From Alcanivorax limicola (GTDB taxonomy: Bacteria; Pseudomonadota; Gammaproteobacteria; Pseudomonadales; Alcanivoracaceae): 64,000 nt of DNA. A program made the position numbers and the translations under genes. Of this stretch, positions 7,007-33,765 are shown one piece after another. Every line of letters begins with the position of its first letter. The first letter of the stretch is position 1. The stretch covers positions 248,001 to 312,000 of the forward strand of contig NZ_JAIOUB010000002.1 in the NCBI RefSeq assembly GCF_019931215.1, read 5' to 3'. The notes under the pieces are model-generated. The model had not been told where the DNA came from, searched no databases, and saw only the letters and a list, made by a program, of their open reading frames with translations.

Positions 7007-8098
7007 ATGGGTGCAACATGGCTGACGGGTCCCGGAAGGTTGCTGACACGCTTCGGTGAGCGGCCACTGTTTCGTGAGGGGCTGTATCGCGTCGCACAAG
7101 ACAGCTATGCTTGGATGGTGCCCAACGGCGCCTGGGGCGAAACCAATATCGGCTTGCTGGATTGCAAGGGCCAGAGCGTCCTGATTGATACCTGCTGGGA
7201 CCTGGGCCATACCACCGAAATGCTGGACGCGATGCAGACCGTTACGGCGGATTCGCCCATCAGCCATGTCATCAATACACACGCCGATGGTGACCATTGC
7301 TGGGGCAACCAGTTGTTTGCGGAGCAGACCATTATTGCGTCGCAAGCCTGCGTCGATCAGATGCACCACACCAGCCCCCGCGCCATGACCGCGCTCAAAC
7401 ACGCGGCATCGGTGTCGCGGCATTTTCCCATGCGCACCGTCTCTGACTTTGGCTGCTACATGGGCGAGATGTTGTCACCCTATGATTTTCGGGGTGTGCG
7501 GGTAAAAGCCGCCACGCAAACCTTTGTGCAAGAGACGGCGCTGCGCATCAATGGTGTGGAACTGCTACTGACCCAGGTGGGCCCGGGCCATACCGATGGC
7601 GATATCATCGTATTTGTGCCGGAGCGGCGGGTGGCTTATACCGGCGATATCGTATTCGCCGATTCGACGCCTGTTGCCTGGGCCGGGCCGGTGGAGAATC
7701 TTGTTAGTGCACTGCAACGGTTGCTGCAACTGGATGCGGATGTGCTGGTACCGGGCCACGGGCCGCTGGCCACGCGCAAGATGGTGCGCCAACAAATCGA
7801 CTACTGGGAATTCTTGCAAGCGCAGCTGTACACGGCCTGCCTTCGCGGCGTGCCACCGCAAGACGCGGCCCGTGAGTTACTGCTGTCTTCCCGTTTCCGC
7901 AGCACGCCGTTCGCCCGTTGGGGCTCACCGGAGCGGGCCATCAGCAGCGCCTTTACCCTGTACCGCCATTGGGGAGCACCGCCGAGTCCTTTACCCGGAA
8001 AACTGGGCATCCTGAATGTGCTCAGGCATCAGGCCAGCCTGGCCATGGACATGCCTGAGGCGTCGCCGGCGATCATGCACTGCCGTCACCGGCGATAG
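7007..8098 (+). CDS. Metallo-beta-lactamase-fold hydrolase
   Basis: 363 residues. All metal-ligand motifs are present in order: HADGDH (about residue 86 on), GPGHTDGD, TGDIVF and VPGHG. The enzyme should therefore bind two zinc or iron ions and be active. The family includes hydrolases, lactonases and persulfide dioxygenases, so the reaction is not defined. It starts 25 bases after the FAH gene and ends at a strong terminator, so the two form an operon. Ring-opening or acyl-ester hydrolysis feeding the FAH enzyme is a reasonable guess only. Confidence 0.87.
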   Translation: MGATWLTGPGRLLTRFGERPLFREGLYRVAQDSYAWMVPNGAWGETNIGLLDCKGQSVLIDTCWDLGHTTEMLDAMQTVTADSPISHVINTHADGDHCWGNQLFAEQTIIASQACVDQMHHTSPRAMTALKHAASVSRHFPMRTVSDFGCYMGEMLSPYDFRGVRVKAATQTFVQETALRINGVELLLTQVGPGHTDGDIIVFVPERRVAYTGDIVFADSTPVAWAGPVENLVSALQRLLQLDADVLVPGHGPLATRKMVRQQIDYWEFLQAQLYTACLRGVPPQDAARELLLSSRFRSTPFARWGSPERAISSAFTLYRHWGAPPSPLPGKLGILNVLRHQASLAMDMPEASPAIMHCRHRR

Positions 8099-8165: not shown

Positions 8166-10913
8166 CTACCGATCTTCATAGCGTTGGTGCTTGAAGAAGA
8201 TGCCGGTATCGCCGAATTGGGACAGGGTGAACTCGGACTGGGTGACCAGCTCACCGATTTTCACTGCGCTGTCGCGACGTTCGCGGGCGTAGCGTGCGGT
8301 GATCCATGGCCAGATGGAGGTGCGAATCTCCATATCAGTACCGTAAATATCATACACTCTGGTACCCGCCGGAATGGCTGTCAGATCATCACGGAAATCA
8401 TGCGGCGCCGTGCTGATGCTGTTGGTCAGGCCCTGGTTGGGCACGAAGTAGATCTGCGTTGGCGTTTTGACGCTGCTCGCCGCACTGCCGTCCTGGTTCA
8501 CTTTCGCCATATCGCTCATGACCAGCAGCGTGGGCTTGGTGGAGACCAGTGAGAACAGCACAGTGGTACCCAGGGTTTCGTTCACTTCCGCCTGAACATA
8601 GTTGGACAGTTCGTTGGCGAAGATATTGTGGTTGTCGCCCTGCCCGCTCAGAGTATAGAGCGCCGACACATTCTCGGAACGCTTGCCATCCACCAGGAAC
8701 TTCAGCGCCAGGCCGGGCGCAAAACCGCGATCGGACGGGTCGCCAGTGACGGACAGGCGCAACAGGCCATGATCCGCGCCCTCGAACAATCCGGTGTAAT
8801 TGTGATTGCCGGTGGACTGGAACTGCACCTTGGCCAACGCACCGCGCGGGTGAATCGGTTTGCTGTAACCCGGCGGCGCAACGTCGGTGACGTCTTGTAC
8901 TTTTTTCCACAGTACCGCGTTGATCAGGCCGCCGATGTCGATGGGCTCGATGTCCGGCACTTCACCTTCGTTATAGCTGGTGCGCAGTGCGCCGTTGACC
9001 CACAGGTGATCCTGTTTGGCCTGCGCGGACCAGTTCTGGTAGTCGTCGGGCATGTTCAGACCCCAGGGCTTGAAGGCGTTATCCATGCCCACCAGGCTGG
9101 TGTTCAGCGAGGGGAAATGACGACGCAGCACGTCCACCATCGTGTTCTCCTCCACCCAGTCGATGCCAGCGACGGTGTAAACCTCGTTGGTGTAATCGGT
9201 GGTGAAGAAGCGGTCCGTCATCAGGCGACGTGAGGCATTGAGAATGAAAATCTGGAAGGAGGTCTCGCCGAAGCCGAAACCTTCGGGGCGGGTTTCTTCC
9301 GCCAGCTGCCCGACCAGGGTATCAATCATTTCAATGTCGTTGTTGTAGAGCGCCTTCAGATCCGCCAGCAGTTGGGGATCGCTGGTCAGGTCTTCGAACT
9401 GCGTGATCGGCTTGAGGCCGATCTGGCGACGGAACTCATTGTAGCGCGGCACGCCCCGTTCGCGATCACGCAGCACGTCGATGGCCGCCATGTCGATATC
9501 GCCGGCAAAGGGCACGGACAGGTTACGCATGAAATCCGGGTAGTTCCTCAGCGTCAGGGCGCCGGGATGGGTGATACCGAAGGAATACCACAGGCGGTCC
9601 TGGCCTTCCGCGCTGAGCAGCGCTTCCGCATTGCCATCGCGGGTATACTGAATAGGAATCTCCCGGTCGACGATATTGGAGCCGATATCAAAGACCTTGA
9701 TCTCGTCACGCAGCAACGGGTGCATACGGTACACCGACACGAACTCTTCGGTGAGCGTGTATGGCACACCGTAGTTGTTCGGTGTGCGCGAACCCACCAG
9801 GCCCGCCAGCGCATGTTCGATGGAGCCGGTGGGGCTGTTGCCCAGACCGGTGTCGATACCCACCAGATTGAACAGGTTACCCAACTGGCTCAGGTTGTTG
9901 TTGAGCACGTTCAGGTCGTCCTGGAATTTGTCGCGGGTGTCCCGGTCGCCGCCCAGGCCCCACCAGTTGGCGTACATCGCCCGTTCCAGTACCGGATTGG
10001 CGAGGATGGCGGGGGTCCATTCCACGGTGTGGATCTTGGCCATCAGGGCGGAATTGATCAGACGCGCCTTGTCGAACAGCCATTGATCAGACATGCCCGG
10101 GTTGTTGGCCTTGAGCATCTCGGCGATCTTGTTGTGCTCCAGTGTGAACAGGTGGTGCAGCAGGCTCAGCCCGACCCACCAGTTTTCATTGAAGCCGGTA
10201 ACCGGCTTGCCACTGAAGAACTCCGTGGGCAGGCGGCCGTTGCTGTCGACTTTCAGCTTGCCGTCCACAAACGCACGCACGGCATCGTTGGTTTCCTTGT
10301 CGCTGCCATAGAGCTGCGAACCATCCCACCAGTGGGTGTTGATGTTCTCGTAGGTGATGGTGGTTTCATCGCCGGTCGCGTTGGGGTCCGGACGGGTCCG
10401 TTTGACAGACATGGTGCCGCTGCCCAACACATCACCGGCCGGCAACGGGAATTCGATCGGGTCCGCTTCGCTGTTTGGCCCATGATCAAACCAGTCATGC
10501 ACCATGAACTGAATCCACGCGGTAGCGATAAAGTTCAGTGTGGTGGCCGGCTTGAAGTCGCCGTCCCGGGACATGAGCAGATTACTCACTTCACGGGGGT
10601 TGGGGATCAACAGGGTGTCGTTGAGGGTTTCCGGCTGGGCCACGTCCGGATTGACGTTACGGCCGAAGCGCACATGGGCGGAGCCTTCCGCCGGATTTTC
10701 CAGGATGTTGCAGGTGCCGTCTTCCGTCCGCGCGGTGAGGCTACGCTCGTCACACACGATGGGCGCATTCTTGTCGGCCCAGTTTTCCTGGTCGAACATA
10801 TTGTTATTCAGCAGGTTTTCCCGCTGCGCGGCCAGGACCAGCAACGCACCCATAACGCCCAGGGTGCCGAATTTGGTCAGGATAGGCCAGGTAACCCAGG
10901 GGGTTATAGGCAT
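8166..10913 (-). CDS. Haem peroxidase of the fatty-acid alpha-dioxygenase type, with C-terminal extension
   Basis: 915 residues of the animal-haem-peroxidase superfamily. The best match by eye is the alpha-dioxygenase branch. TAWIQFMVHDWFDHG holds the distal His (about H139). LEHNKIAEML and AKIHTVEWTPAI are the conserved helices. EEFVSVYRMHPLL carries the catalytic Tyr (about Y395) and proximal Fe-binding His (about H398) with the YxxH spacing of plant alpha-dioxygenases. Those enzymes add O2 to C2 of fatty acids, giving 2-hydroperoxides that decay to aldehydes one carbon shorter. A hydrophobic segment at residues 10-30 may be a membrane anchor or uncleaved signal. The family usually ends near 640 residues; here about 270 further residues follow, which I do not recognise (they include GLALKFLVDGKRSEN). 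A MalT-type regulator lies upstream on the same strand. Confidence 0.85.
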   Translation of the reverse strand: MPITPWVTWPILTKFGTLGVMGALLVLAAQRENLLNNNMFDQENWADKNAPIVCDERSLTARTEDGTCNILENPAEGSAHVRFGRNVNPDVAQPETLNDTLLIPNPREVSNLLMSRDGDFKPATTLNFIATAWIQFMVHDWFDHGPNSEADPIEFPLPAGDVLGSGTMSVKRTRPDPNATGDETTITYENINTHWWDGSQLYGSDKETNDAVRAFVDGKLKVDSNGRLPTEFFSGKPVTGFNENWWVGLSLLHHLFTLEHNKIAEMLKANNPGMSDQWLFDKARLINSALMAKIHTVEWTPAILANPVLERAMYANWWGLGGDRDTRDKFQDDLNVLNNNLSQLGNLFNLVGIDTGLGNSPTGSIEHALAGLVGSRTPNNYGVPYTLTEEFVSVYRMHPLLRDEIKVFDIGSNIVDREIPIQYTRDGNAEALLSAEGQDRLWYSFGITHPGALTLRNYPDFMRNLSVPFAGDIDMAAIDVLRDRERGVPRYNEFRRQIGLKPITQFEDLTSDPQLLADLKALYNNDIEMIDTLVGQLAEETRPEGFGFGETSFQIFILNASRRLMTDRFFTTDYTNEVYTVAGIDWVEENTMVDVLRRHFPSLNTSLVGMDNAFKPWGLNMPDDYQNWSAQAKQDHLWVNGALRTSYNEGEVPDIEPIDIGGLINAVLWKKVQDVTDVAPPGYSKPIHPRGALAKVQFQSTGNHNYTGLFEGADHGLLRLSVTGDPSDRGFAPGLALKFLVDGKRSENVSALYTLSGQGDNHNIFANELSNYVQAEVNETLGTTVLFSLVSTKPTLLVMSDMAKVNQDGSAASSVKTPTQIYFVPNQGLTNSISTAPHDFRDDLTAIPAGTRVYDIYGTDMEIRTSIWPWITARYARERRDSAVKIGELVTQSEFTLSQFGDTGIFFKHQRYEDR

Positions 10914-10992
10914 GATAGGTCTCCGTCTTCTTGTTCTCGGGGTATGTCAGATGACAACACCGGGACTCTAGCAACGGGGCCAACCCCTCCAC

Positions 10993-11010
10993 CCCCTCCT
11001 GCGGGAGGGG
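10993..11010 (-). terminator. GC-rich hairpin between LuxR and peroxidase genes
   Basis: Arms CCCCTCC (10993-10999) and GGAGGGG (11004-11010) enclose a 4-base loop, 59 bases after the LuxR stop. No T tract follows on either strand, so it is a weak terminator candidate or a leader structure of the peroxidase mRNA. Confidence 0.3.
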
Positions 11011-11068
11011 CTGGGCAGGAATCGCCAACCAGATCATGGTTTACCGGGGTAGAAGAAAGGCCGCGCCG

Positions 11069-13699
11069 CTACCGTGGCGCCGCACGCAGAACGGCTTCCG
11101 TGCGATTGGAGAGGCCCAACTTGCTGTAGATGTTTTTCAGGTGCCATTTGGTGGTGGTGATGGAGGTGCCGGTCTTCTCGCTGATCAGGGCATTGCTCAG
11201 GCCGCCTTGCAGCAGTTCAAATATCTCCAGCTCTTTGGGGGTCAGTACCGAATCCGGGTCGACTTCCAGCGGGTCATTGCCCGGGGCGACGTCGAAGACG
11301 GCGGGGAACAATTCGGTGTAGCAGGCCGGCAGCATCAGCGCGCCGCCGCGCCATAGCCGATTCATCAGGCTGGCCAGGCCGGGGGCCTCATCGAACACCG
11401 AGCGATTGATGTTGAGCAGCCCGTGACGGGTGATCAGCGCATCCACCTGTTTGGCCTGTTCTGCGGCAGGCTGCTGTTTGCTGGCGATCACCAGCAGGTT
11501 GGCTTCCATGATGGAGGCGCGGGTCTTGATGCCTGCCGTCTTGACTACCGCGAGCAATCGCTGCAACACGGCTTCCGCCTCGGCCAGGCGGCCATTGGCG
11601 ATCAGCCAATACGCCGCCGCCAGGCCTTTTCGTTCCCAGCTCTGGCTGTAGGTGTGCGGGGTATGCGCGCCGTTGTCCGCCACCCAACCGGCCAGGTCAA
11701 AGCGCTCGGCCACTGCGTCCAGCCGGGCCCAGTGGCCGGCGGTGAAGGCCTGGCGCACCATTTCCAGCACCGTCATGCTGACAAAGCGCTCGTAGTTGCC
11801 GAGCTGCAGAATGCCGAGCAGCTTTTCCAGCATGCGCTCTGCAGGTTGGTGCTTGCCCTGCAAATGCTGCAGGCGCGACAGGGTCAGATAGACCGTGGAG
11901 ATCACTTCCGTGGCGGACGCGCTGGAGACCATGGGCAGTAAATCTTCGCAGAGCTGCTGCGCCTCGGTCAGGCGGCTCTGGTCATAGAGCACCACCACCA
12001 TGCCGGTGGCCCACAGGGACCAGGTGGGGCAGTCCCGCGTTGTGTTATGAAAGTGCTCGTTGATAAAGGCTACCGCCTCGCCGATGTGACCGAGCTGGTG
12101 ATTGGCCAGGGCGGTAATCAACCCCGCATACCCGGCGGTGAAGCGGTGCCCCAGACGCAACAGCACTTCCCGCGCCTGGCAGGAAAACGCCAGCGCCGAT
12201 TCCAGCCGGCCATGTTGCAGATGGTGATAAGCCACCATGGCCAGGGAGAAGGCGCGGATATCCCGGTGGCCGCAGCTTTCCATCAGCAGTGACAGATTGG
12301 CCCCTTCCATGAAGTCGGTGTCGTGCTGAAAAAGCTGCAGGTGCATTTCCAGAAAATCGATCACCCGGGCATGGTTGTCCCGGGCAGCTTCGCCACTGCG
12401 CGGGGCTTCCTTCAAGGCATCCAGGTAATAGCGAGCACGAAAGAAGCGACGCGACAGCGTCAGCGTGCTGATCAATGGCGCGGCCAGTTCGTCGCGACCA
12501 AGAATGACGTCATCCGGCAGCGTCTCCGCCCAATCCAGAATATGTGCGGCGTAGCCTTCGCGCAGCCAGTAGTCGAAAGCCTGCTCCAGCGAATGGATAA
12601 ACAGGCCGTCATCCCCTGCCCGTTTCGCATGCCACACGGCCTGGCGAAAATTCTGATGGCGCACAAAAAAACGGGTGGCGCGACGATGGATGGCAGTGAT
12701 GCAGTCGGGCATATCAATGGCCACCCGAGCACGCAGGAAATCCCGTAGCAAGGCATGGTAGCGATACCAGCCCGGCTGGCCCGCCACCGGTATCAGAAAC
12801 AACTCGCGGGAGCTCAGTTCCTCTATCAGGCGCGCGGAGCGATCGCTCTGCAACACCTCGTCGCACAGTGCGGCATTGAAGCTGTCCAGCAAGGCGCTCT
12901 GCATGAACAGCGTGCGGGCGGTATCCGGCAGGCCCTTGAGCACCGCATGGCCGAAGTACGCCATCAGCTCCGGCTGGCTCGCATCAAAATCCTGTAGCGT
13001 CTGCATGCCCGAGCGAATAGCCGCCAGCAGCGCAATCTTGACCCCGGCCATCCAGCCTTCGGTGATGCTCAGCAGGTGTGTCATGTCGGCGTCATCCAGC
13101 GCCTCGCCGCCCAGGCCTGCGTTCAGCGCGGTCACTTCTTCGCGACGAATCTTCAGATCGGCAGCATTGATTTCCAGCAGACGATCTTCCAGCCGCAACC
13201 GGCTCACATCGAAGGCCGGCTGCGTGCGGCTGGCGATGATCAGATGCACATTCCCCGGCGGCTGGGCCAGCAACGTGCTGATAACACTGAGGGTTTCCGG
13301 GCTGCGAATATGCTGGAAGTCATCAAAGACAATGAACAGCGGCTCGTCCACCTGCTCCAGCGCATCAAAGAGGGCGTCGGCAATCGACGCCGGCGGCAAC
13401 TCGGCCACATCGAAAGGCATGAACCAGGAGGTATCAAAGGCGGGCACCACCGCGCGCGTCCCTTCGGCGAAACGGCGCAAGAAGCGCACCGGGTCATCAT
13501 CCGCAGGCCGCAGGCTCAGTGAGATCACCGCGCCGATGTCCGGCCGCGCCTGCCACTGGCTGAGCAAAGTGGATTTGCCCGCCCCGGCCGGGGCCAGCAA
13601 CAGGGTAAGGGGGACCTGGGTGCAGTGGTCCAGCAATGCCACCAATTCCTTCCGGTAGTACCGGCCCGGTGGCAGCCGGGACGCATCAGTCGTACTCAT
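11069..13699 (-). CDS. MalT/AlkS-type large LuxR-family regulator
   Basis: 876 residues. The N-terminal STAND ATPase has the Walker A motif APAGAGKSTLL (about residue 37) and a Walker B-like FIVFDDFQHI (about residue 121). A long helical TPR-like region follows. A C-terminal LuxR helix-turn-helix begins at LTPKELEIFELLQGG and runs through TTTKWHLKNIYSKL. The architecture and length match MalT and AlkS, which bind ATP and an inducer, multimerise and activate promoters. It ends 155 bases before the start of the alpha-dioxygenase-like gene on the same strand, so it is probably that gene's activator. A lipid or alkane-derived inducer is inference from context. No second regulator is nearby. Confidence 0.88.
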   Translation of the reverse strand: MSTTDASRLPPGRYYRKELVALLDHCTQVPLTLLLAPAGAGKSTLLSQWQARPDIGAVISLSLRPADDDPVRFLRRFAEGTRAVVPAFDTSWFMPFDVAELPPASIADALFDALEQVDEPLFIVFDDFQHIRSPETLSVISTLLAQPPGNVHLIIASRTQPAFDVSRLRLEDRLLEINAADLKIRREEVTALNAGLGGEALDDADMTHLLSITEGWMAGVKIALLAAIRSGMQTLQDFDASQPELMAYFGHAVLKGLPDTARTLFMQSALLDSFNAALCDEVLQSDRSARLIEELSSRELFLIPVAGQPGWYRYHALLRDFLRARVAIDMPDCITAIHRRATRFFVRHQNFRQAVWHAKRAGDDGLFIHSLEQAFDYWLREGYAAHILDWAETLPDDVILGRDELAAPLISTLTLSRRFFRARYYLDALKEAPRSGEAARDNHARVIDFLEMHLQLFQHDTDFMEGANLSLLMESCGHRDIRAFSLAMVAYHHLQHGRLESALAFSCQAREVLLRLGHRFTAGYAGLITALANHQLGHIGEAVAFINEHFHNTTRDCPTWSLWATGMVVVLYDQSRLTEAQQLCEDLLPMVSSASATEVISTVYLTLSRLQHLQGKHQPAERMLEKLLGILQLGNYERFVSMTVLEMVRQAFTAGHWARLDAVAERFDLAGWVADNGAHTPHTYSQSWERKGLAAAYWLIANGRLAEAEAVLQRLLAVVKTAGIKTRASIMEANLLVIASKQQPAAEQAKQVDALITRHGLLNINRSVFDEAPGLASLMNRLWRGGALMLPACYTELFPAVFDVAPGNDPLEVDPDSVLTPKELEIFELLQGGLSNALISEKTGTSITTTKWHLKNIYSKLGLSNRTEAVLRAAPR

Positions 13700-13938: not shown

Positions 13939-14535
13939 ATGCGCACCTTCGTGCTCCGCGCCCGCGCCGCCCCCACCGACAGCCAGGCTCTGCTGGCCCA
14001 TGTCGGCGGCGATGCCCATACGGAAATTCTTGCCCACACGCTGATGAACAGCCTGTTTGTGGCCCAGTCGCATCGGGACGATGTGGTCGTGCACCTGGTG
14101 CTGGAAAGCACTCGGGACTTTTCCCGCACCATCACCTTTACTGCCGCTGACATGCAGCATATCGGTGGCTTCCATGAGCAAGCGCTGCTGGCCAAGGTAG
14201 CCAAGGCGCTGGACGCATCACAGGGACTGGGCAAGGAAGAGGAGCGCGCCGTGGAGCCAGGCATCCGCGTACGCACGCTGAGCTTTGAACGGTTGGTGAA
14301 GGATCTGGCGGAAGATCATCCGCTTTACATGATGGACAAAAAAGGCACACCGGTTCGCACGATGACGTTTGCCAGCAACCCTTGCTTCCTGCTGACCGAC
14401 CATATCCCCATGCCAAAGAAGACGTTCAACAGCCTGAAACGACTGGGCGCAGAAAAAATCAGCCTGGGGCCAACCATGCTGTTTGCGTCACAGTGTGTGG
14501 TGCTGATTCATAATGAGCTGGATCTGGCGGAATAA
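13939..14535 (+). CDS. trmY: TrmY-like SPOUT pseudouridine methyltransferase
   Basis: 198 residues, full family length. It begins MRTFVLRARAAPTDSQ and has the conserved AHTLMNSLFVAQSHRDD, YMMDKKGTPVR and NPCFLLTDHIPMPKKTF. The ending FASQCVVLIHNELD completes the SPOUT knot. Archaeal TrmY uses S-adenosylmethionine to make N1-methylpseudouridine at tRNA position 54. Close bacterial relatives, for example in Vibrio, share these motifs, but their RNA target is not clear because bacterial position 54 is normally ribothymidine. The gene stands alone with its own likely promoter, between the LuxR gene and the toxin-antitoxin pair. Confidence 0.85.
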   Translation: MRTFVLRARAAPTDSQALLAHVGGDAHTEILAHTLMNSLFVAQSHRDDVVVHLVLESTRDFSRTITFTAADMQHIGGFHEQALLAKVAKALDASQGLGKEEERAVEPGIRVRTLSFERLVKDLAEDHPLYMMDKKGTPVRTMTFASNPCFLLTDHIPMPKKTFNSLKRLGAEKISLGPTMLFASQCVVLIHNELDLAE

Positions 14536-24881: not shown

Positions 24882-25919
24882 TTAAAGCGTCTGGGTGGTG
24901 TGGCCGGTGGCCGGGTTCAGGGCGCGGCGCACGTGCTCCACCAGCTGACGGGCCAGTTGTTCCGGATCACCACTGTAACTGACACAGCCGGTGTCGCGGC
25001 TGGCATCGGGCTGGCTACTGACCGCGCAACTGTCCGCAGACTGCGCCCATACCGGGGCGCCGGTGGCGGCCATGGCCGGAGCGGCAATGGCGCCGTCATT
25101 GCCCATGCCGGAAAACAGGATAGCACCGGCGCGCGCGCCGAAGGCCGTACTGGCATTCTGGATGGCCTGATCAATGGAGGGTGAATAGGGCCCCTCCCAC
25201 GGCTTGCCAGATGAGCGCAGCTGGCCAGTCTCGGTAAAGGTGACTTCATAATCCACCGGCGCCAGCAGCACCTGGCCCGCATGCAGCACCATACCGTCGT
25301 GGCCGACATCACAGTGGAAGCTGTTATCGCGGCACAGCACCTTGGCCAGAGTATCAAGAAAGCCGCCGTCGATATGCTGGGCCAGAAAGAACGCCACCGG
25401 TAGCGTGGCCGGCAGACAATCCAGGAACTGTTTTACCGCCGCCGGCCCACCGAGGGACGCCCCCAGCACCCACACCTGCTCCGGCACCTGGCCCGCCGCC
25501 AGGCCCTGGAACTCACGAGGGGCAGCGATGGGTCTGGCGGGCGTTGCGGCGGGCGTCAGAGTCTCCAGCTCTTCGCGAATGCGGGGCTTACCCACGTAAT
25601 CCAGCAGCTTGGCCAGCAGACGGCGTTCCCAGCGCGGGTATTCAGGGGCAATGCGGGCGGGCGCCTGGCCGTCACAGAACAGAATAGGCGCCTGGGCGCT
25701 TTCCAGCAGGTGATCCAGAAACTGTTGCCAGCGATCCTCCTGGGACAGGTCCACCACCCAGAGGTCCGGCGCCTGCGTCAGCCAGTCCGGCTCGAGGTTG
25801 GCCGGATCAGTATTCAGCAGCACCACTTCGTAACCCTGCCCTTTCACGGCAGACGCCAGCAGGTGGGCCTGTAATCGGGTGTCGGCGATGATACCGATGC
25901 GCGGGTTAGCGGGCGTCAC
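24882..25919 (-). CDS. chpB: ChpB, CheB-like protein-glutamate methylesterase
   Basis: 345 residues. The C-terminal CheB domain shows the triad: Ser in GASLGGPAAV, His in LAQHIDGGF and Asp in SGMGNDGA. It would remove methyl groups from the receptor PilJ, opposing PilK. The N-terminal domain has receiver shape (RIGIIADTRLQAHLLASAVK, then DLWVVDLSQED) but lacks the paired N-terminal acidic residues of a metal-binding receiver, so phosphorylation control there is doubtful. It sits between chpA and chpC on the same strand. Confidence 0.9.
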   Translation of the reverse strand: MTPANPRIGIIADTRLQAHLLASAVKGQGYEVVLLNTDPANLEPDWLTQAPDLWVVDLSQEDRWQQFLDHLLESAQAPILFCDGQAPARIAPEYPRWERRLLAKLLDYVGKPRIREELETLTPAATPARPIAAPREFQGLAAGQVPEQVWVLGASLGGPAAVKQFLDCLPATLPVAFFLAQHIDGGFLDTLAKVLCRDNSFHCDVGHDGMVLHAGQVLLAPVDYEVTFTETGQLRSSGKPWEGPYSPSIDQAIQNASTAFGARAGAILFSGMGNDGAIAAPAMAATGAPVWAQSADSCAVSSQPDASRDTGCVSYSGDPEQLARQLVEHVRRALNPATGHTTQTL

Positions 25920-25958
25920 GGGAGGCTCCGGCGGTGCCTGGCACAGCGGTGTCGCCGG

Positions 25959-28900
25959 TCAGTCGCTGGGCGCACTGGCGGTCTCCCGCGCCTGGGCCAG
26001 CAGTTCGGAAATGGTCGCCAGCAGTTCGCTTTCCTGGAACGGCTTGCCCATGTAGGCGTTGACGCCGATGTCGAACGCCCGGTCGCGATGCTTCTCGCCG
26101 GTACGCGAGGTAATCATGATGATCGGTACATCTTTCAGGCGTTCGTCGTGCCGCACATGGGTCGCCACTTCAAAGCCGTCCATGCGCGGCATTTCAATAT
26201 CCAGCAGCATCAGGTCCGGCTTGTGTTCTTCCAGGGTGGCGATGGCATCCATGCCGTCCTTGGCGGTGATGACTTCATAACCGCTGCGCTCGAGCAGACG
26301 CGTGGTCACCTTGCGCACCGTGACGGAATCATCGGTAACCATGATCAACGGATTCGCCGCTGCGCGCTCTGCTTCCACCAGCTTCTGGCGCTCGTGCTCG
26401 AGCGCCTGGGCCGCGCGACGTTCTTCGGCAGCATAGTGCTGACGCTGCATGTGCGCAGCACGGATCAGCGAATGAATATCCAGAATGATGACCACGGAAC
26501 CGTCACCCAGGATGGTCGCACCACTGATGCCGGCCACGGTGGCCAGCTGCGGCCCCACCGATTTCACCACGACTTCCCGTGACCCCACCAGGGAATCCAC
26601 CAGCACCGCCACGGTATGTTCGGAACTGCGCACCAGCAGTACCGGCATGGGCATGACCTGGGCATCCAGATTCTGTGGCTTCAATGAACCATGCACGAAA
26701 CTGCCAAGGTATTCGAAATCGTATTGCTGCCCGGCGTAGGTAAAGGGCATTTCTTCGGTATTGAAATAATCTTCCAGCTCGTAGGGGCTGATGCGCACGA
26801 TACCTTCGATCTGGTTCAGCGGTATGGCGTAAGTGTCATCGCCCACCCGCACCATCAGGGCGCGGTTCATTGCCAGGGTGAACGGCAGGCGAATCACGAA
26901 GCGGGTGCCTTCGCCGCGCCGGGAATCAATGGTGACCGAGCCGCCCATCTGTTTGATCTCGGACGCCACCACGTCCATGCCGACGCCGCGCCCGGAAATC
27001 TGCGTCACCTGTGCGGCGGTAGAGAAACCGGCATTAAAAATGAATTGCTGGATTTCCTGATCCGTCAGCAGGGAATCGTCGTCAATCAGACCGCGCTCGA
27101 CCGCTTTTCTACGCACCGCGTCGGTGTCGATGCCCTTGCCGTCATCGGACAGGATCATCACCACCTCGCCACCTTCGCGGCCCAGTTCCAGGGTCACGCG
27201 ACCGCTGTCTGACTTGCCGCCGGCCACGCGCGCATCGGGGCTTTCGATACCGTGGTCCACGGCGTTACGCAGCATGTGCTCCAGCGGCGCGACCACGCGT
27301 TCCAGCAAGGTACGGTCGAGTTCGCCTTCCGGGTTGAGCACGTCAAACTCGACACGCTTGCCGATCTCGCCGGATACCTGCCGTACCACGCGGCGCAGGC
27401 GCGGCACCAGACGTGCGAAGGGCACCATGCGCGTGCGCATGAGCTTTTCCTGCAATTCGGTGTTGATGCGTGCCTGCTGCAGCAGCAGGGTTTCGGTGTC
27501 TTTGGTGCGATCCAGCAGGGTGCTTTTCAGGTCGAGCAAATCCGAGGCGGATTCCGACAGCTGTTTGGTGATCTGGTGCAGTTCGGAATACTGGTCCATT
27601 TCCAGCGGATCGAAATCTTCGGAGTACTGCCCTGCTTCCACGCCCTGCTTGTAGTTGGACATGATCTGCGCTTCGGTCTCCGAATCGAGCCGGCGCAACT
27701 GTTCATAAAGCCGTTCTACCGTATTGCCCATCTCTTCTACGTGGGCGTTGAATTCGGTAATACCCTGCTCGACACGACCCCGGTTGATACTGGTTTCACC
27801 GGCGAGGTTCACCAGGGATTCCAGCAGTTCGGAGGCGACGCGCACCATTTCCTGGGGCTGCTGCTGGCGGCGCAGGCGTTCTTCGCGGATGACCTGGGCG
27901 TCCGGTTTTGCCAGTTCGGTGCCCGCGCTCTGCTCAACGGGCGCTTCCGGTGCAGCCGGCCGGACAGGGGGCTTGGGCACGGCGGCGCTGATCTGCGCCA
28001 TCAGCACGGTAAGACGGGTCAGCCAGCCACTCAGCGTATTGAAGTAGGCCTCGTCCGCCACATGGCCACGCGGGGTATCCAGCAGAAACTGTTCGAATTC
28101 ATGGCTGGCATCGCCGAGGGATTTCAGGCCCGCCAGGCGGGCACCACCCTTGAGGGTATGCAGCGCGCGTTTGATTTCGTCGTTATGGATGCTGACCTGG
28201 GGCGTCTCGCGCCAGGCGCCAATATGTTCCTCGATCAGCTCGGCCAGCTCGGCGGATTCCTCGATAAATATCTGCAGGATTTCCACATCGGCATCGGCGG
28301 CGATCAGATCGGTGCTGACTGGCTCGGGGGCGGGTGGCGGTGTGTACACCGGCTCGGTCACGCTCGTCTCGCCCAGGTCTGCCAGACTGAAGCTGGCCGG
28401 GTCCGACATGTAATCGCTGATACCGGCCATCAGCTCGTTGGCTGGCGCCAGTGCCCGCTGTTCCTTGACCGCTTCCACCATCTCGGCGAGTCGGTCGTGG
28501 CAGCGGTGCAACAAATCAAACAATACCGGCTCAGCGCGCAGGCGGCCCTGGGCCAGGCCTTCATAAAGGTTTTCCAGTTCATGGCCCAGATCACCCAGTT
28601 CGGGAATTTCGGCCATGCGTGCGCCGCCTTTCAGCGTATGCAAATCCCGCTGCAGCGATTGCACTTCAATCAGGTTATCCGGGGCAGCCATCCAGGCTTC
28701 CAGCCGCCCGGTAATGGCTTCCAGAATTTCGTCCGCTTCCTCGAGGAAGATTTCCACCAGCTCCATGTCGCGCTCTTGCGCGGGCATGTCGTCGCTGTGT
28801 GCATCGGACGCTGGCGACAGGGGCCTGGCAAATTCTGTCTCCGACACGTCGCTTTCTGGCAAATCGGCTTGTGACGGCGCGATGGCATCGGCGTCTCCCG

Positions 28901-31900
28901 GAAAAGCGAGAATCGCGGCGACCAGATCCGGGGCCGGTTGCACGGCACGTGCTTCACGCAGCGCGTCCACCATATCGGCAAGCCGATCATGGCAACGATG
29001 CAACAGTGCAAACAACGCGGGGCTGCCATCGAGCTTGTCCTGCGTCACGGCTTCGTAGAGATTTTCCAGCTCATGGGCCAGATCACCCACTGGCGTCACG
29101 CCAGACATCAGAGCGCCGCCTTTCAGGGTATGCAGTTCGCGCTGCAATACAGCGACGTGACTGATGTCGCCGCCCTGCTCCCAGCCATCAAGGCTCTCGC
29201 CGGCGGCTTCCAGAATCTCACCGGCTTCTTCCAGAAACAGGGCCGCCAACTCCGGGTCTATCTCGCTCCCGGCATTCTGGTCGAAGGTTCTCTGTTCATG
29301 CGTGTTCTGGTCACCAGGCGCGGCATCGAAGGAAGCGCGCCCGCCCTCGGCAGAATTCCCGTCGCCGTCCGGCATGGCTGTGCCGCCAGGGCCACCATCT
29401 GGATCATTGTCCGGGTCAGTGTCAGGATCGTCGTCAGAAATATTATCCAGCAGATCACGCAGTGCCTGCACCAATACAGGCTCGGCGCGCACGGTCTGTC
29501 CGGCGGCGAGGAAATCCATCATCGTCATCAACGCTTCGTGGGCCTGTTGGGCCAGCTCCACAAAGTGATCGTCACACACCAGGCGATCTTCGATGATGGC
29601 GGTGTAGCCTTCCGCCAGCACATTGGCCAGCGTGCTGATTTCGCTCAGGCCTGCCGTATCGGCACTACCGCCCAACAGCGACAACTCGTCACGCAGGGGC
29701 TGGAGTGTACCGGCACTGTCCTGGTCCACCATCCACTGATCCAGCAGACGGTCCGCATCGACAATCAGGTCCATACCTTCCGACAGGAACACGGAAAGAA
29801 TGTGTTGGTCCCCTTTCTGCTCACCGAGATGGCTCAGCAGCTCATGGGCCATCGCAATACGTGCCGCGAGCGCTTCACTGCCCTGCAGTGACGGCATGCC
29901 CGGGTGCGCATTGCCGATCCCCTGTTCGATAACGCTGACCACATCCTGCAGCAGGGTGATCACTTCGCGGTCGGCGCGCACGCCGTTGTTGATCATTTCC
30001 TTGACGAATTTCTCTGCCGGCTCGGCCACTTCCGCCACGGCTTCGATTTCTGCCATGCGGGCGCTGCCCTTGAGGGTGTGCAACGCACGGTGAACGCTGT
30101 CATCCACCGGGTGTTCGGAAATATGCTGATCCAGGCCATCCAGCCAGGCATGCACGAGCGCAATATTGGCATCGCTTTCGTTACGGAAAATCTCCAGCAA
30201 CACCGGGTCTGCATCATCCACTTCCGTGACGGTCATGTCCGGCACGTCGAGGGGCATGTCGAGGGATGCGTCGTTGCCCGGCAGCGGGCTGTCGTCGAAC
30301 GTAATTTCTTCCGCATCGTCAGTCAGCCAGTCCGGCGCCGCATCGCTGTCTGTATCAGCACTGTCGTCTGGATTGGCGTCTGAATTGACGTCTGCATCAG
30401 CGTGAGCTGCCCCGGCGCCCGTCACATCCGGTATTACGCTAATGCTGCCACCGGCAGCCAGCGCATCCGCAGCATCGCTGAGCGGCGTGACGTCGTAGGG
30501 GTCGGGCTTCTGGGCAGCGAAAGCCTCGACCAACGCTGGCACCAGGCCGTGCACCGTGCGCACCAGCTCCACCAGGATCGGCGTTGGCTGAATGGTCTGG
30601 TCGATGACGCGGTTGGTCATGTTTTCAATGGACCAGGCCAGTTCGCCAACCGTGGTAGCCCCGACCATCCGGCCGGACCCTTTCAAGGTGTGGAAGGCGC
30701 GGCGGAATTCCACCAGCGCTTCCTGATCCTGCTGATTGGCTGCCCAGCGCGGGAAATAGGTATTCAGGGCTTCCAGCACTTCGCTGGCTTCCTCGACAAA
30801 GATCTCGATGATCTCATCGTCGATCAGATCATCCTCACCACGACTGCTCGCTGGCGCTGCCACCGCAGGTGCAAGCTCGACGGTACTGAGCGTGATGGCC
30901 TCTTCGGCAGGCTCCTCATCAACGGGCGCATCGTCCAGGAGTTCATCTTCCGGGGGCTCATCTTCCGAGGGCGCATCGTCCAGGAACTCATCTTCCAGGA
31001 GCTCATCGACTGGCGCATCAAATTGCTCGTCAGATTGTTCCGGGGCAGATTCCAGTGTGATGCTGTAGTCGCCGTCTTCCTCGTCGGCCGCAGCATCCCC
31101 GTAGTCCACCTCGTCATTACGACCAAATTCCGCATCGTCGAGGGGATAACCCAGCGCCGCGACGCTGTCACGGGCAAGATCGAGAATACTGTCGCTGGTA
31201 TCAGGATCATCCGTCAGTCGTTCCAGGAAATATTCCACGCTGGTAATCGCGTCGGCCAGCGTGTCCATGCTGCGCCAGTCCGGCGTTACCGCCTCGGCGC
31301 CAAGCAGTCGTTCGCTGACATAGGTCACGCACTGACGCAGGATCAGCGCCGGACGCTGCAACTGAATCAGCTGCAGACCGCCGCGCACGGCATCCAGCCG
31401 CGCCGGTACTTTTTCCAGGTGTGATTGCTGCCACTGCGAGGCAATAAATTCCACGATGCCGTCTTTGGCTTCTTCCAGACCGGCGCGGCATTCACGTATC
31501 ACCGCCTCTTGTGCCTTGCTGACGTGATCGGGAATCTGCGCAAGTTCACCCGTACGGCCATAGCCTTTGCCAGACAGGCCCGCCAGCGTCGCTTCCACAA
31601 ACAGCAACGCGCCGGCAACATCCATCAACCCATCGCGGGTGGTGGGCCGTTCGCCGGCCACCATGGCATCCAGCACCGTCAGCTGCTCTTCTACCAGTTT
31701 GCGCGGCTGGCCCAGCCCGAGCACGGCGACCGTATCAGCGATCTGTTTCAGGGTCTGGCTCTGAGGCTGCAGCACCGCCGGGTCGCTTTGCTCTTCCAGC
31801 ACGTAGCGTTCCAGCGCTTCTTTGACTTTGTTCAGCTCTTCGGACAGCGCCGTCACTACCGAGCCCATGGCTTCCTGGTCCGGGCCACTCATGCGCTCGC

Positions 31901-32819
31901 GCTCGGCGTTGACCAGCTCTTCTGACGGCAAGGCGTCATCCAGACGGAAGCTTTCTCGCAGAGCGCTGATGCGCGGGCTGTCGGCGTTACTGCGCGCAAT
32001 GTAATACAGCAGGTTTTTCAGCAGGTCCTGGGGCGGTGCACTGGACAGGCGGGGCGCGCCCTCCGCCACCAGGTCACGCAGTTGCCGGTCGAGATGACCC
32101 AGCACCATTTTTACCGAGGTGCCGATCTCGATGGTGTCATGAATCAGGCCTTCGACCAGCGCATTGGCGGCCTGCCACAGCGGTGTCTGCGGGGCATCAC
32201 CGGACACCTGTTCCAGCTTGCTGAATACTTTGCTCATGTAATCGAGATTACGTGGCAAGTCGTCATTGCGCAGGACACCGAGCAACGCGATCTGATACAT
32301 CTGTCGGATCTTGCGCACCAGCTGGCCGAAATTCGGATCAGCCGCAGCGGCCGACGGCGCGCCGGTGCGCGTCGCACCGCCGGCGATATCCGGTTTGAAC
32401 AGTGCGGTTTCCGATAGCAGTGATTCGCCGCGCGCGGCGCGCAGATCATTCAGCAGGGGCAACAGCACCAACGGCAGATCACGACGGCTGGACTGGATAC
32501 GGGCGAGATACGGCGGCAGTTGCAAGATGGCGCGCATCAGGGTTTCCAGCGCGTCGTTGAGCTGCCCGGCGCCTACCCGTTCTTCCAGCAGGGCTTCCGC
32601 CAGCTTTTCCATTTCTTCAGCAAGCAGCGCGGCGCCATAGAACTCCACCATCTGCAAGGTGCCGTACACCTGGTGCAGATAGGTCTGGCAAAAGCGCATG
32701 CGCGAAGAATCTTCGGGATTCTCCACGTAGGCTTCCAGGGCCTGCTGGGCCTGATTCAGGGTTTCCTGAATCTCGCCCTTGACCCAGTCCAGAGCCAGAT
32801 AGTCGTGGCGGTCAGACAT
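25959..32819 (-). CDS. chpA: ChpA, multi-Hpt chemosensory histidine kinase
   Basis: 2286 residues, close to the roughly 2470 of Pseudomonas ChpA. Five canonical Hpt sites read HTLKG, with His near residues 710, 914, 1230, 1394 and 1554. A divergent sixth near the N-terminus (YLHQVYGTLQMVE, H49) lacks the Lys. Other degenerate Hpt-like bundles lie between. An acidic linker (about 570-660) and Asp/Pro-rich linkers separate them. Then come the dimerisation and CheA-type HATPase (NAVDHGIES, GRGVGMDVV), a CheW domain (RALMVRVGDDTYAIPL) and a C-terminal receiver with Asp in LMLLDIEMPRMDG. It would phosphorylate PilG and PilH to control pilus extension, retraction and cAMP. The gene lies 23 bases after pilK. 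Confidence 0.96.
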   Translation of the reverse strand: MSDRHDYLALDWVKGEIQETLNQAQQALEAYVENPEDSSRMRFCQTYLHQVYGTLQMVEFYGAALLAEEMEKLAEALLEERVGAGQLNDALETLMRAILQLPPYLARIQSSRRDLPLVLLPLLNDLRAARGESLLSETALFKPDIAGGATRTGAPSAAAADPNFGQLVRKIRQMYQIALLGVLRNDDLPRNLDYMSKVFSKLEQVSGDAPQTPLWQAANALVEGLIHDTIEIGTSVKMVLGHLDRQLRDLVAEGAPRLSSAPPQDLLKNLLYYIARSNADSPRISALRESFRLDDALPSEELVNAERERMSGPDQEAMGSVVTALSEELNKVKEALERYVLEEQSDPAVLQPQSQTLKQIADTVAVLGLGQPRKLVEEQLTVLDAMVAGERPTTRDGLMDVAGALLFVEATLAGLSGKGYGRTGELAQIPDHVSKAQEAVIRECRAGLEEAKDGIVEFIASQWQQSHLEKVPARLDAVRGGLQLIQLQRPALILRQCVTYVSERLLGAEAVTPDWRSMDTLADAITSVEYFLERLTDDPDTSDSILDLARDSVAALGYPLDDAEFGRNDEVDYGDAAADEEDGDYSITLESAPEQSDEQFDAPVDELLEDEFLDDAPSEDEPPEDELLDDAPVDEEPAEEAITLSTVELAPAVAAPASSRGEDDLIDDEIIEIFVEEASEVLEALNTYFPRWAANQQDQEALVEFRRAFHTLKGSGRMVGATTVGELAWSIENMTNRVIDQTIQPTPILVELVRTVHGLVPALVEAFAAQKPDPYDVTPLSDAADALAAGGSISVIPDVTGAGAAHADADVNSDANPDDSADTDSDAAPDWLTDDAEEITFDDSPLPGNDASLDMPLDVPDMTVTEVDDADPVLLEIFRNESDANIALVHAWLDGLDQHISEHPVDDSVHRALHTLKGSARMAEIEAVAEVAEPAEKFVKEMINNGVRADREVITLLQDVVSVIEQGIGNAHPGMPSLQGSEALAARIAMAHELLSHLGEQKGDQHILSVFLSEGMDLIVDADRLLDQWMVDQDSAGTLQPLRDELSLLGGSADTAGLSEISTLANVLAEGYTAIIEDRLVCDDHFVELAQQAHEALMTMMDFLAAGQTVRAEPVLVQALRDLLDNISDDDPDTDPDNDPDGGPGGTAMPDGDGNSAEGGRASFDAAPGDQNTHEQRTFDQNAGSEIDPELAALFLEEAGEILEAAGESLDGWEQGGDISHVAVLQRELHTLKGGALMSGVTPVGDLAHELENLYEAVTQDKLDGSPALFALLHRCHDRLADMVDALREARAVQPAPDLVAAILAFPGDADAIAPSQADLPESDVSETEFARPLSPASDAHSDDMPAQERDMELVEIFLEEADEILEAITGRLEAWMAAPDNLIEVQSLQRDLHTLKGGARMAEIPELGDLGHELENLYEGLAQGRLRAEPVLFDLLHRCHDRLAEMVEAVKEQRALAPANELMAGISDYMSDPASFSLADLGETSVTEPVYTPPPAPEPVSTDLIAADADVEILQIFIEESAELAELIEEHIGAWRETPQVSIHNDEIKRALHTLKGGARLAGLKSLGDASHEFEQFLLDTPRGHVADEAYFNTLSGWLTRLTVLMAQISAAVPKPPVRPAAPEAPVEQSAGTELAKPDAQVIREERLRRQQQPQEMVRVASELLESLVNLAGETSINRGRVEQGITEFNAHVEEMGNTVERLYEQLRRLDSETEAQIMSNYKQGVEAGQYSEDFDPLEMDQYSELHQITKQLSESASDLLDLKSTLLDRTKDTETLLLQQARINTELQEKLMRTRMVPFARLVPRLRRVVRQVSGEIGKRVEFDVLNPEGELDRTLLERVVAPLEHMLRNAVDHGIESPDARVAGGKSDSGRVTLELGREGGEVVMILSDDGKGIDTDAVRRKAVERGLIDDDSLLTDQEIQQFIFNAGFSTAAQVTQISGRGVGMDVVASEIKQMGGSVTIDSRRGEGTRFVIRLPFTLAMNRALMVRVGDDTYAIPLNQIEGIVRISPYELEDYFNTEEMPFTYAGQQYDFEYLGSFVHGSLKPQNLDAQVMPMPVLLVRSSEHTVAVLVDSLVGSREVVVKSVGPQLATVAGISGATILGDGSVVIILDIHSLIRAAHMQRQHYAAEERRAAQALEHERQKLVEAERAAANPLIMVTDDSVTVRKVTTRLLERSGYEVITAKDGMDAIATLEEHKPDLMLLDIEMPRMDGFEVATHVRHDERLKDVPIIMITSRTGEKHRDRAFDIGVNAYMGKPFQESELLATISELLAQARETASAPSD

Positions 32820-32842
32820 GAACTCTCCTGAGAGTTATCCGG

Positions 32843-33733: not shown

Positions 33734-33765
33734 GGTCCCGTCTCCGGAACCGGCTTACACCGGCA

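Follow-up and report, generated by a model that had tools for sequence, protein, structure and literature searches.

Two intact open reading frames lie one behind the other on the minus strand of the window, a stretch of 64,000 nucleotides from Alcanivorax limicola, and encode an alpha-dioxygenase (hereafter DOX) and a STAND-LuxR regulator (Table 1). The 155 bases that separate the end of the regulator gene from the start of the DOX gene harbor a perfect dyad, and the coordinates bear out a preliminary description of this DNA, which had placed an 876-residue STAND-LuxR protein 155 bases upstream of the enzyme on the same strand.

Table 1. Features of the alpha-dioxygenase/regulator locus (positions are those of the window)
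Feature	Position	Strand	Basis or remark
915-residue alpha-dioxygenase (DOX) with C-terminal, probably catalase-like module	8166..10913	(-)	ORF; An_peroxidase; PDB; Foldseek
Catalytic alpha-dioxygenase part, residues 1-620	9054..10913	(-)	PDB and alignment of 42 sequences
C-terminal module, residues 621-915	8169..9053	(-)	Best structural matches catalase-related; own gene in Calothrix
876-residue STAND-LuxR (MalT-architecture) regulator; HTH residues 817-872	11069..13699	(-)	ORF, Pfam, NCBIfam
Perfect dyad CCCCTCCCGCAGGAGGGG, candidate operator	10993..11010	(-)	Further direct half-site GGAGGGG 2 bases downstream
-10-like TAGAGT	10965..10970	(-)	22 nt past the dyad; basis is consensus and spacing alone

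DOX matches the Pfam family An_peroxidase above chance (1.5e-103), and in a PDB search its first ~620 residues match the alpha-dioxygenases of rice (PDB identifiers 4kvj and 4kvl; 1e-111) and Arabidopsis (PDB identifier 4hhr; 1e-104), with the next family following at 3e-32 (PDB identifier 8s6c). Foldseek likewise ranks plant alpha-dioxygenases first to fourth (E-values of 1e-27 to 6e-26), using a full-length structure model of low confidence (pLDDT 67.6) that served for family ranking only. Both searches place DOX nearer to the alpha-dioxygenases than to cyclooxygenases or mammalian-type peroxidases, in agreement with the family proposed in the preliminary description, and the two motifs cited there could be located, viz., YRMH at residues 395-398 and an HDW motif containing His139. 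His139 is the distal and His398 the proximal histidine, and Tyr395 is the radical tyrosine, corresponding in the alignments to the position that was replaced in 4kvl (titled Y379F). His295, Thr300 and Arg563 are the aligned counterparts of His311, Thr316 and Arg559 of the rice enzyme, the residues that hold the substrate carboxylate; all six DOX positions are unchanged throughout the 42 long-form sequences that were aligned. As judged from these alignments, the first ~620 residues of DOX are a member of the fatty-acid alpha-dioxygenases with catalytic and substrate-binding positions kept, and from the known chemistry of that family DOX should oxygenate fatty acids at C2. The class had rightly been called best known from plants, though bacterial alpha-dioxygenases are in print, two of them, from Cyanobacteria, having been assayed (PMC8720084). 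DOX has in common with the plant and cyanobacterial enzymes (rice 4kvj, Arabidopsis 4hhr, CalDOX and LepDOX) the fold, the radical tyrosine, the two haem histidines and the carboxylate-binding residues, and the enzyme of Calothrix PCC 6303 is 44% identical to its catalytic part; it differs from them in adding a 295-residue tail and a dedicated STAND-LuxR partner.

This tail, which had escaped the preliminary description, is a separate module without counterpart in the plant enzymes. In Calothrix PCC 6303 it is encoded as a gene of its own behind the alpha-dioxygenase gene, separated from it by two genes, one for a short hypothetical protein and one for a transposase, and an AraC-type gene lies upstream; the tail is, in other words, separable. 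Pfam, NCBIfam and PDB profile searches with the tail gave no useful match. Foldseek ranked catalase-related proteins first and second and chanoclavine synthase third, the best match being a 33-kDa catalase-related protein of Mycobacterium avium subsp. paratuberculosis (PDB identifier 3e4w; probability 1.00, 17% identity, TM of only about 0.36), and from these structural matches the tail is probably catalase-related in fold. The match in sequence is weak: hhalign gives probabilities of 1.9-3.9% against catalases (3.9%, P 0.011, for a set of 10 checked catalases), and one divergent catalase-family protein gave no alignment (P 0.51). In this weak match the invariant His688 of the tail falls in register with the distal histidine of catalases, and the last 50 residues hold no invariant tyrosine among the aligned sequences. 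The proximal tyrosine of catalases sits in a helix, which would begin about where the tail stops, and haem binding by the tail is therefore doubtful. Coral allene oxide synthase-lipoxygenase and fungal dioxygenase-P450 are likewise fusions of a fatty-acid dioxygenase with a second module, one that could use the hydroperoxide that the dioxygenase makes; DOX differs from them in being an alpha-dioxygenase with its catalase-like part at the C-terminus, for which such an activity is a prediction. The 'one-enzyme system' of the preliminary description was thus right about a dedicated regulator but understates DOX, in which a second, probably catalase-like module is present.

The regulator consists of an N-terminal NTPase, a TPR region and a C-terminal LuxR helix-turn-helix, with Pfam GerE and TPR matches above the curated cut-offs and the AAA matches of its NTPase below them. 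The MalT structure matches residues 15-370 (PDB identifier 8bob; 8e-30), and the NCBIfam MalT model (NF003420) matches at 1.5e-71 with 241.6 bits, below its equivalog cut-off of 537 bits. By sequence, the regulator is a protein of MalT architecture that forms a group of its own and is not AlkS. It resembles the MalT/AlkS family in its three domains and in a candidate site that adjoins the promoter, and departs from it in its separate grouping, in falling under the MalT equivalog cut-off and in the palindromic CCCCTCC/GGAGGGG form of that site.

The pairing of the alpha-dioxygenase with this regulator is conserved. Among 68 loci gathered with the enzyme alone as query, the regulator is adjacent in 47 (upstream and co-directional in 40, divergent in 7), lies ~3 kb away in 3 and is lacking in 16, while 2 are cut off; beyond the regulator, one further neighbor group is common across genera, in 22 loci. 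A survey of 390 genomes of the order, in which two candidates per genome were scored, returned 25 full-length regulator matches with at least 33% identity, the next full-length match having 27%. Of these 25, 16 have a long-form dioxygenase as their neighbor and 8 a di-haem cytochrome c, and 1 stands alone. No description of a LuxR regulator in partnership with an alpha-dioxygenase was found among the matches listed from the open-licence PubMed Central literature, and a term search of the main text of the Alcanivorax borkumensis proteome paper found no mention of peroxidase or dioxygenase.

The dyad, CCCCTCC-n2..8-GGAGGGG, which the preliminary description had likewise passed over, begins 86-132 nt ahead of the dioxygenase gene. 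A dyad score of at least 12 of 14, a threshold chosen after the data had been seen, is reached at 48 of 50 regulator-bearing loci as against 3 of 16 that have no regulator within the locus (L021, L029 and L050), with a Fisher p-value of 2.6e-9 that overstates the case because the loci are related by descent. The two regulator-bearing loci devoid of the dyad (L049 and L066) have regulators of a separate branch. Among metagenome-assembled genomes titled Oleispira and Bermanella, two loci (L036 and L067) have both dyad and regulator and four (L031, L037, L060 and L063) have neither. The dioxygenase promoters of three genomes that played no part in defining the dyad (G723, G439 and G623) score 13, and G723 retains the dyad at the dioxygenase though its regulator lies ~0.7 Mb away. 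A -10-like TA...T follows the dyad by 19-24 nt in 45 of 52 dyad-bearing sequences, as compared to 6% of shuffles. Scanning the promoters of seven short alpha-dioxygenases did not find the dyad (scores of 8-11). The dyad is hence put forward, from position and co-occurrence, as a candidate operator of the regulator at the dioxygenase promoter.

In its strict form the dyad occurs twice in the whole 3.55 Mb genome, once at the DOX locus, and 9 of the 11 strict sites in 16 regulator-bearing genomes are at the dioxygenase; seven of these genomes have no strict dyad there (six have none anywhere and G414 has one elsewhere). The bare count shows no enrichment (14 sites across 24 genomes, where the pattern read backward has 16), so the weight of the dyad rests on its position and spacing only. 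These numbers suggest a near one-target activator as far as the strict motif can tell, in line with the one-enzyme system proposed in the preliminary description; the genome-wide counts took the strict dyad only, and further targets with looser sites may exist.

On what is directly established, i.e., the enzyme family and its conserved residues, the gene pairing, the dyad with its spacing and the separability of the tail, we build a model of a two-gene module of activator and enzyme, which we consider rather likely to be correct. The STAND-LuxR protein would be an activator dependent on a ligand and ATP; bound to the dyad in the dioxygenase promoter, it would presumably turn on the dioxygenase gene alone. 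In the enzyme, His295, Thr300 and Arg563 would bind the carboxylate of a free long-chain fatty acid; haem and peroxide would generate a radical on Tyr395, which would abstract the C2 hydrogen, and addition of O2 would yield the 2-hydroperoxide. The catalase-like module may act on this 2-hydroperoxide or protect against it; otherwise the hydroperoxide would lose CO2 to give an aldehyde one carbon shorter. As a pathway, the alpha-oxidation of fatty acids is familiar from plants and, to our knowledge, its bacterial physiology has hardly been explored; here a conserved, apparently regulated bacterial alpha-dioxygenase is found in oil-degrading and related Gammaproteobacteria. The fixed spacing of the predicted operator makes the link between regulator and gene testable, the separable module leads one to expect that the 2-hydroperoxide is processed further, and which ligand the receptor group responds to becomes an answerable question.

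A possible, though not favored, alternative is that the enzyme, once induced, makes an oxylipin that serves as a signal and not as a step in feeding, with a regulator that senses fatty acid or oxylipin; oxylipin-dependent signalling in Pseudomonas aeruginosa would be the parallel. A one-enzyme regulon without beta-oxidation genes would fit, and so would the sister regulators that adjoin an exported-looking di-haem cytochrome c (two CxxCH motifs about 220 apart) instead of the dioxygenase. The intergenic regions between regulator and cytochrome, which likewise played no part in defining the dyad, carry a like one: 13 of the 15 score at least 12 and the other 2 score 11 (at least 12 in 2.3% of random 250-mers). 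The strict TA...T rule failed at these promoters (1 of 15); CA...T at the same distance, noticed post hoc, is present in 15 of 15 as against 10% of shuffles. PA2077, a fatty-acid 10S-dioxygenase, and PA2078, a diol synthase, are RoxA-like di-haem proteins (PMC4496055). A RoxA-like di-haem cytochrome c gene also follows an alpha-dioxygenase gene of Rhizobium. Against the signal stand the cytochromes themselves, which have no RoxA match in Pfam and no relative in the PDB, so that membership in the PA2077 or RoxA family is unsupported and the likeness to PA2077/PA2078 at best distant. Nor was the sister-type cytochrome found in the window's genome by one search without a positive control and a family model that is generally weak. 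The oleate diol synthase pathway of PA2077/PA2078 has no alpha-dioxygenase and is under LysR control. In a bolder reading, also possible though not favored, the module may be an inducible bacterial oxylipin switch with a single promoter, in which a bifunctional alpha-dioxygenase/catalase-like enzyme converts its own hydroperoxide and free fatty acids or their oxylipins are what the STAND-LuxR receptor recognizes, its group commanding different fatty-acid-oxygenating haem enzymes (alpha-dioxygenase and di-haem cytochrome c) via one operator code.

It is unlikely that the regulator is an AlkS-type alkane sensor and the dioxygenase serves growth on alkanes. The likeness to AlkS drawn in the preliminary description holds for architecture and approximate size but not for kinship: two AlkS-type proteins taken from real alk clusters share only 22-25% identity with the regulator over part of its length and fall outside its group in the tree, other MalT-type proteins score better, and the regulator neither groups with AlkS nor adjoins alkB. 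Many host genera of the enzyme are known hydrocarbon degraders, and the 12 genome loci examined out of 14 matches include two genes of AlkB type that carry the NYxEHYG motif, but a scan of the 68 loci for the AlkB motif found none.

That DOX is no dioxygenase but a peroxidase, clearing lipid hydroperoxides or producing oxidants and carrying a protective tail, we consider distinctly improbable. Its animal-type haem peroxidase fold, the Foldseek matches of the tail and the lack of a PF00199 catalase match in the window's genome would suit such a role, but the carboxylate-holding residues and radical tyrosine of alpha-dioxygenases are invariant, and the E-value to alpha-dioxygenases is ~80 orders of magnitude better than that to peroxidases.

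That the dyad forms a hairpin, as a terminator or otherwise, the regulator being idle on the dioxygenase and their adjacency merely inherited, is very improbable: a GC-rich palindrome could end the regulator gene in co-directional loci and its bare count is no higher than the backward control, but the dyad also lies between divergent genes, keeps its distance from both the -10-like hexamer and the dioxygenase, tracks the regulator even among the Oleispira and Bermanella assemblies and is kept at the dioxygenase in G723. The second genomic copy, a perfect palindrome at C1:316628 before a TAT-signal/GMC-oxidoreductase gene group, would also suit a terminator; as a second regulon member it is likely background, because a stop codon precedes it by about a dozen nt and regulator-bearing genomes are no richer in strict sites remote from the dioxygenase (2 in 16) than the other genomes (3 in 8).

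The enzyme beside the regulator had been likened to the fatty-acid alpha-dioxygenases, a class familiar chiefly from plants, and both sequence and structure comparisons bear this out. A phmmer search of the PDB retrieved alpha-dioxygenases as the best matches (4kvj/4kvl at 1e-111 and 4hhr at 1e-104), with 8s6c next at a distance (3e-32) and, after it, peroxinectin A at 1e-25 and the cyclooxygenases at about 1e-13; Foldseek, queried with a model of the whole protein that has low confidence (pLDDT 67.6), placed the plant alpha-dioxygenases 4kvj/4kvl and 4hhr/4hhs at ranks 1-4. Tyr395 aligns with the residue mutated in 4kvl (titled Y379F), and His295, Thr300 and Arg563 are the counterparts of His311, Thr316 and Arg559, the carboxylate-binding residues of the rice enzyme. 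His139, His295, Thr300, Tyr395, His398 and Arg563 are invariant in all 42 aligned long-form sequences (the window's enzyme and 41 of the 68 loci described below). Membership of the alpha-dioxygenase family is thus well supported, and catalytic activity is predicted from it. The closest relatives, in records mostly titled Alcanivorax, are 80-91% identical in the best segment, which suggests that the genome belongs to Alcanivorax or a near relative. Alpha-dioxygenases of bacteria, proteobacterial sequences included, have already been published, and CalDOX of Calothrix parietina has been assayed, according to PMC8720084; for two of the above structure codes that paper has the species swapped relative to the structure titles (Oryza sativa for 4kvj/4kvl, Arabidopsis for 4hhr/4hhs).

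Features of the window and of related loci
Feature	Coordinates	Strand or orientation	Remarks
Regulator gene	11069-13699	-	876 aa, intact
Alpha-dioxygenase gene	8166-10913	-	915 aa, intact; 155 bases downstream of the regulator gene
Metallo-beta-lactamase-fold protein	7007-8098	convergent with the dioxygenase	flank, looks unrelated
Fumarylacetoacetate-hydrolase-family gene		before the metallo-beta-lactamase-fold gene	flank, looks unrelated
TrmY-family gene	13939-14535	other strand	flank, looks unrelated; tRNA pseudouridine-54 methyltransferase
Chemosensory cluster	24882-35790		CheB, CheA, CheR, PilJ-type MCP
Second strict dyad of the genome	G000:C1:316628-316647 (L172:4628-4647)		
Rhizobium phaseoli plasmid locus	L165:3867-8364		dioxygenase-domain protein and cytochrome
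Calothrix sp. PCC 6303 plasmid locus	L162:4702-13862	one direction	alpha-dioxygenase gene and free-standing tail module
Pseudomonas veronii plasmid loci	L163:7881-8861, L164:7881-8861		free-standing tail module

The proposed pairing with the regulator recurs in other genomes. Among 68 loci found by the enzyme alone (75 pattern matches, yielding 72 relatives), the regulator lies upstream and co-directional in 40 and divergent in seven; in three it is separated from the enzyme by about 3 kb that include a cytochrome gene, 16 have none and two are cut off. Clustering of neighbours placed the regulator in 47 neighbourhoods (the window counted), the next groups having 22 and 17 members. The group of 22 comprises type II/IV secretion ATPases of two different subfamilies: in Pseudomonas (L019, L048 and others) and Atopomonas the gene is of GspE type and lies downstream of the dioxygenase, mostly at 69-240 nt and in Atopomonas at about 6 kb, whereas Thalassolituus and Oceanobacter (L041, L043-L045, L055) have an MshE-like gene upstream of it, at 0.8-1 kb. 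For groups 3-11, all rows checked belong to Pseudomonas or Atopomonas. A survey of 390 genomes of the order gave a dioxygenase match at E <= 1e-50 in 37, and 24 of these carry the long form; regulator matches of at least 33% over the full length number 25, of which 16 adjoin a long-form dioxygenase, eight a di-haem cytochrome and one (genome G723) stands alone. Among the papers listed in searches of open-licence PubMed Central, none describes the pair, the C-terminal tail or the candidate operator.

Alignment of Alcanivorax and Pseudomonas upstream regions revealed a shared dyad, CCCCTCC-n2..8-GGAGGGG, as a candidate operator. Scored from 0 to 14 over the 200 nt before the dioxygenase gene (leaving out L056 and L065, whose sequence is cut where the gene starts), it reaches at least 12 in 48 of 50 loci with the regulator as against three of 16 without; the distance from its start to the gene is 86-132 nt in those 48. 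The copy in the window has no mismatch and is followed two bases further on by a third half-site, which matches at 6 or 7 of 7 positions in 29 of 52 sequences as against 1.5% of shuffles. The case for the dyad rests on position, spacing and conservation, because its bare frequency is unremarkable: with up to two mismatches it occurs on average 0.58 times per shuffle of the window, and 24 other genomes hold 14 strict sites as against 16 for a backward control, which is no enrichment. Eleven strict sites occur in 16 regulator-bearing genomes, nine of them at the dioxygenase, where seven of the 16 genomes have none; eight genomes without the regulator hold three. Outside the set used for definition, the dioxygenase promoters of G723, G439 and G623 each score 13, and 15 regulator/cytochrome intergenic regions score 11-14, with at least 12 in 13 of the 15 as against 2.3% of random 250-mers. 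A TA...T hexamer lies 19-24 nt after the dyad in 45 of 52 dyad-bearing sequences (at 20-22 nt in 43), as against 6% of shuffles. Were this hexamer taken as the -10 element, the dyad would be centred near -43, about where activators of the class of MalT and AlkS are expected. The window's genome has the strict dyad in two places; the second copy, also perfect, has a stop codon about a dozen nt ahead of it and a TAT-signal gene with GMC oxidoreductase genes about 115 nt beyond it, and is probably a terminator-like hairpin.

The regulator has the MalT architecture, and no second protein of this type was seen in the window's genome, other matches being confined to the HTH end (five in one search, 11 in another). 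In a midpoint-rooted tree of 52 regulators, with long branches flagged among the outsiders, a supported branch (100/99) separates 41 rows, comprising dioxygenase-associated and cytochrome-associated proteins and the lone G723 copy, from the rest, and the AlkS proteins of two alk clusters fall on the far side of it, with the rest. The regulators of G439 and G623, which are shorter and match more weakly (25-28%), lie divergent from the dioxygenase gene.

Regulators of this group also lie divergent from a di-haem cytochrome c of about 770 residues, lipoprotein-like or exported, with an N-terminal TIG match (loci L134-L139, L141, L142, L016, L035, L038, L042, L054, L064 and L153); mean column identity is 73% in 14 of these 15 loci, and L153 has a regulator ORF shortened to 408 residues. 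In L016, L054 and L064 the cytochrome and regulator genes are grouped with a long dioxygenase gene. In L134-L138 the cytochrome gene is about 2-7 kb from a short alpha-dioxygenase of about 590 aa without the tail (family f210). Short alpha-dioxygenases are divergent from a LuxR-type NTPase regulator of another group in L134, L135, L136, L137 and L140 (three of these five regulators were run against Pfam) and from an AraC-type gene in L147-L149 (Pfam run on one); alpha-dioxygenases therefore seem to have gained neighbouring regulators more than once. The Rhizobium phaseoli plasmid encodes a protein of 942 residues with an alpha-dioxygenase domain and, after a gap of 10 bases, a RoxA-like di-haem cytochrome c (PF21419), whose CxxCH spacing resembles that of PA2077/PA2078.

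Matches to plant alpha-dioxygenases stop at residue 618, and the tail (residues 621-915) has no plant counterpart. The enzyme match extends to residues 909-915 in 66 of the 68 loci; in L050 and L063 it stops at 781-782, where the contig ends or nearly so. The tail also occurs as a free-standing protein. In Calothrix sp. PCC 6303 (46% identity) it lies behind an alpha-dioxygenase gene in the same orientation, with short hypothetical and transposase genes between them, an AraC-type gene ahead, and GMC oxidoreductase and patatin-like phospholipase genes following, possibly a lipid-release and alpha-oxidation operon. On two Pseudomonas veronii plasmids it is 28% identical, with a lipoprotein-like start (in the one protein read of the two) and, in L164, a preceding gene annotated as NAD(P)/FAD-dependent oxidoreductase; one genome of the window's class has it at 30% identity with a signal-like start by eye.

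Foldseek with a tail-only model (pLDDT 81.7) gave two matches at E <= 0.001, both to the 33-kDa catalase-related protein of M. avium subsp. paratuberculosis (1.1e-4 and 1.8e-4, probability 1.00, TM about 0.36), and as third match chanoclavine synthase (2.6e-3, probability 0.89), a catalase-like protein. Against a profile of 10 checked catalases the tail reached a non-significant probability of 3.9% (P 0.011; 1.9% and P 0.025 for a set with one wrong row), two control comparisons being worse (P 0.12 and 0.5); this weak alignment puts His688 on the catalase distal histidine and RLSV on RFST. One divergent catalase-family protein (L199) gave no alignment with the tail (P 0.51), and Pfam and PDB profile searches with it gave nothing useful. 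We consider a catalase-like fold likely for the tail; a working haem is rather doubtful, because the tail ends about where the helix bearing the proximal tyrosine of catalases is expected to begin.

The genome holding the window (3.55 Mb) has no PF00199 catalase match; in the set of 37 genomes searched, of which it is one, 13 have such a match. The flanking TrmY-family protein, of a type known mainly from archaea, exceeds its NCBIfam cut-off. The CheA of the chemosensory cluster has 2286 residues with five Hpt stretches, and the gene set resembles those of twitching-motility systems.
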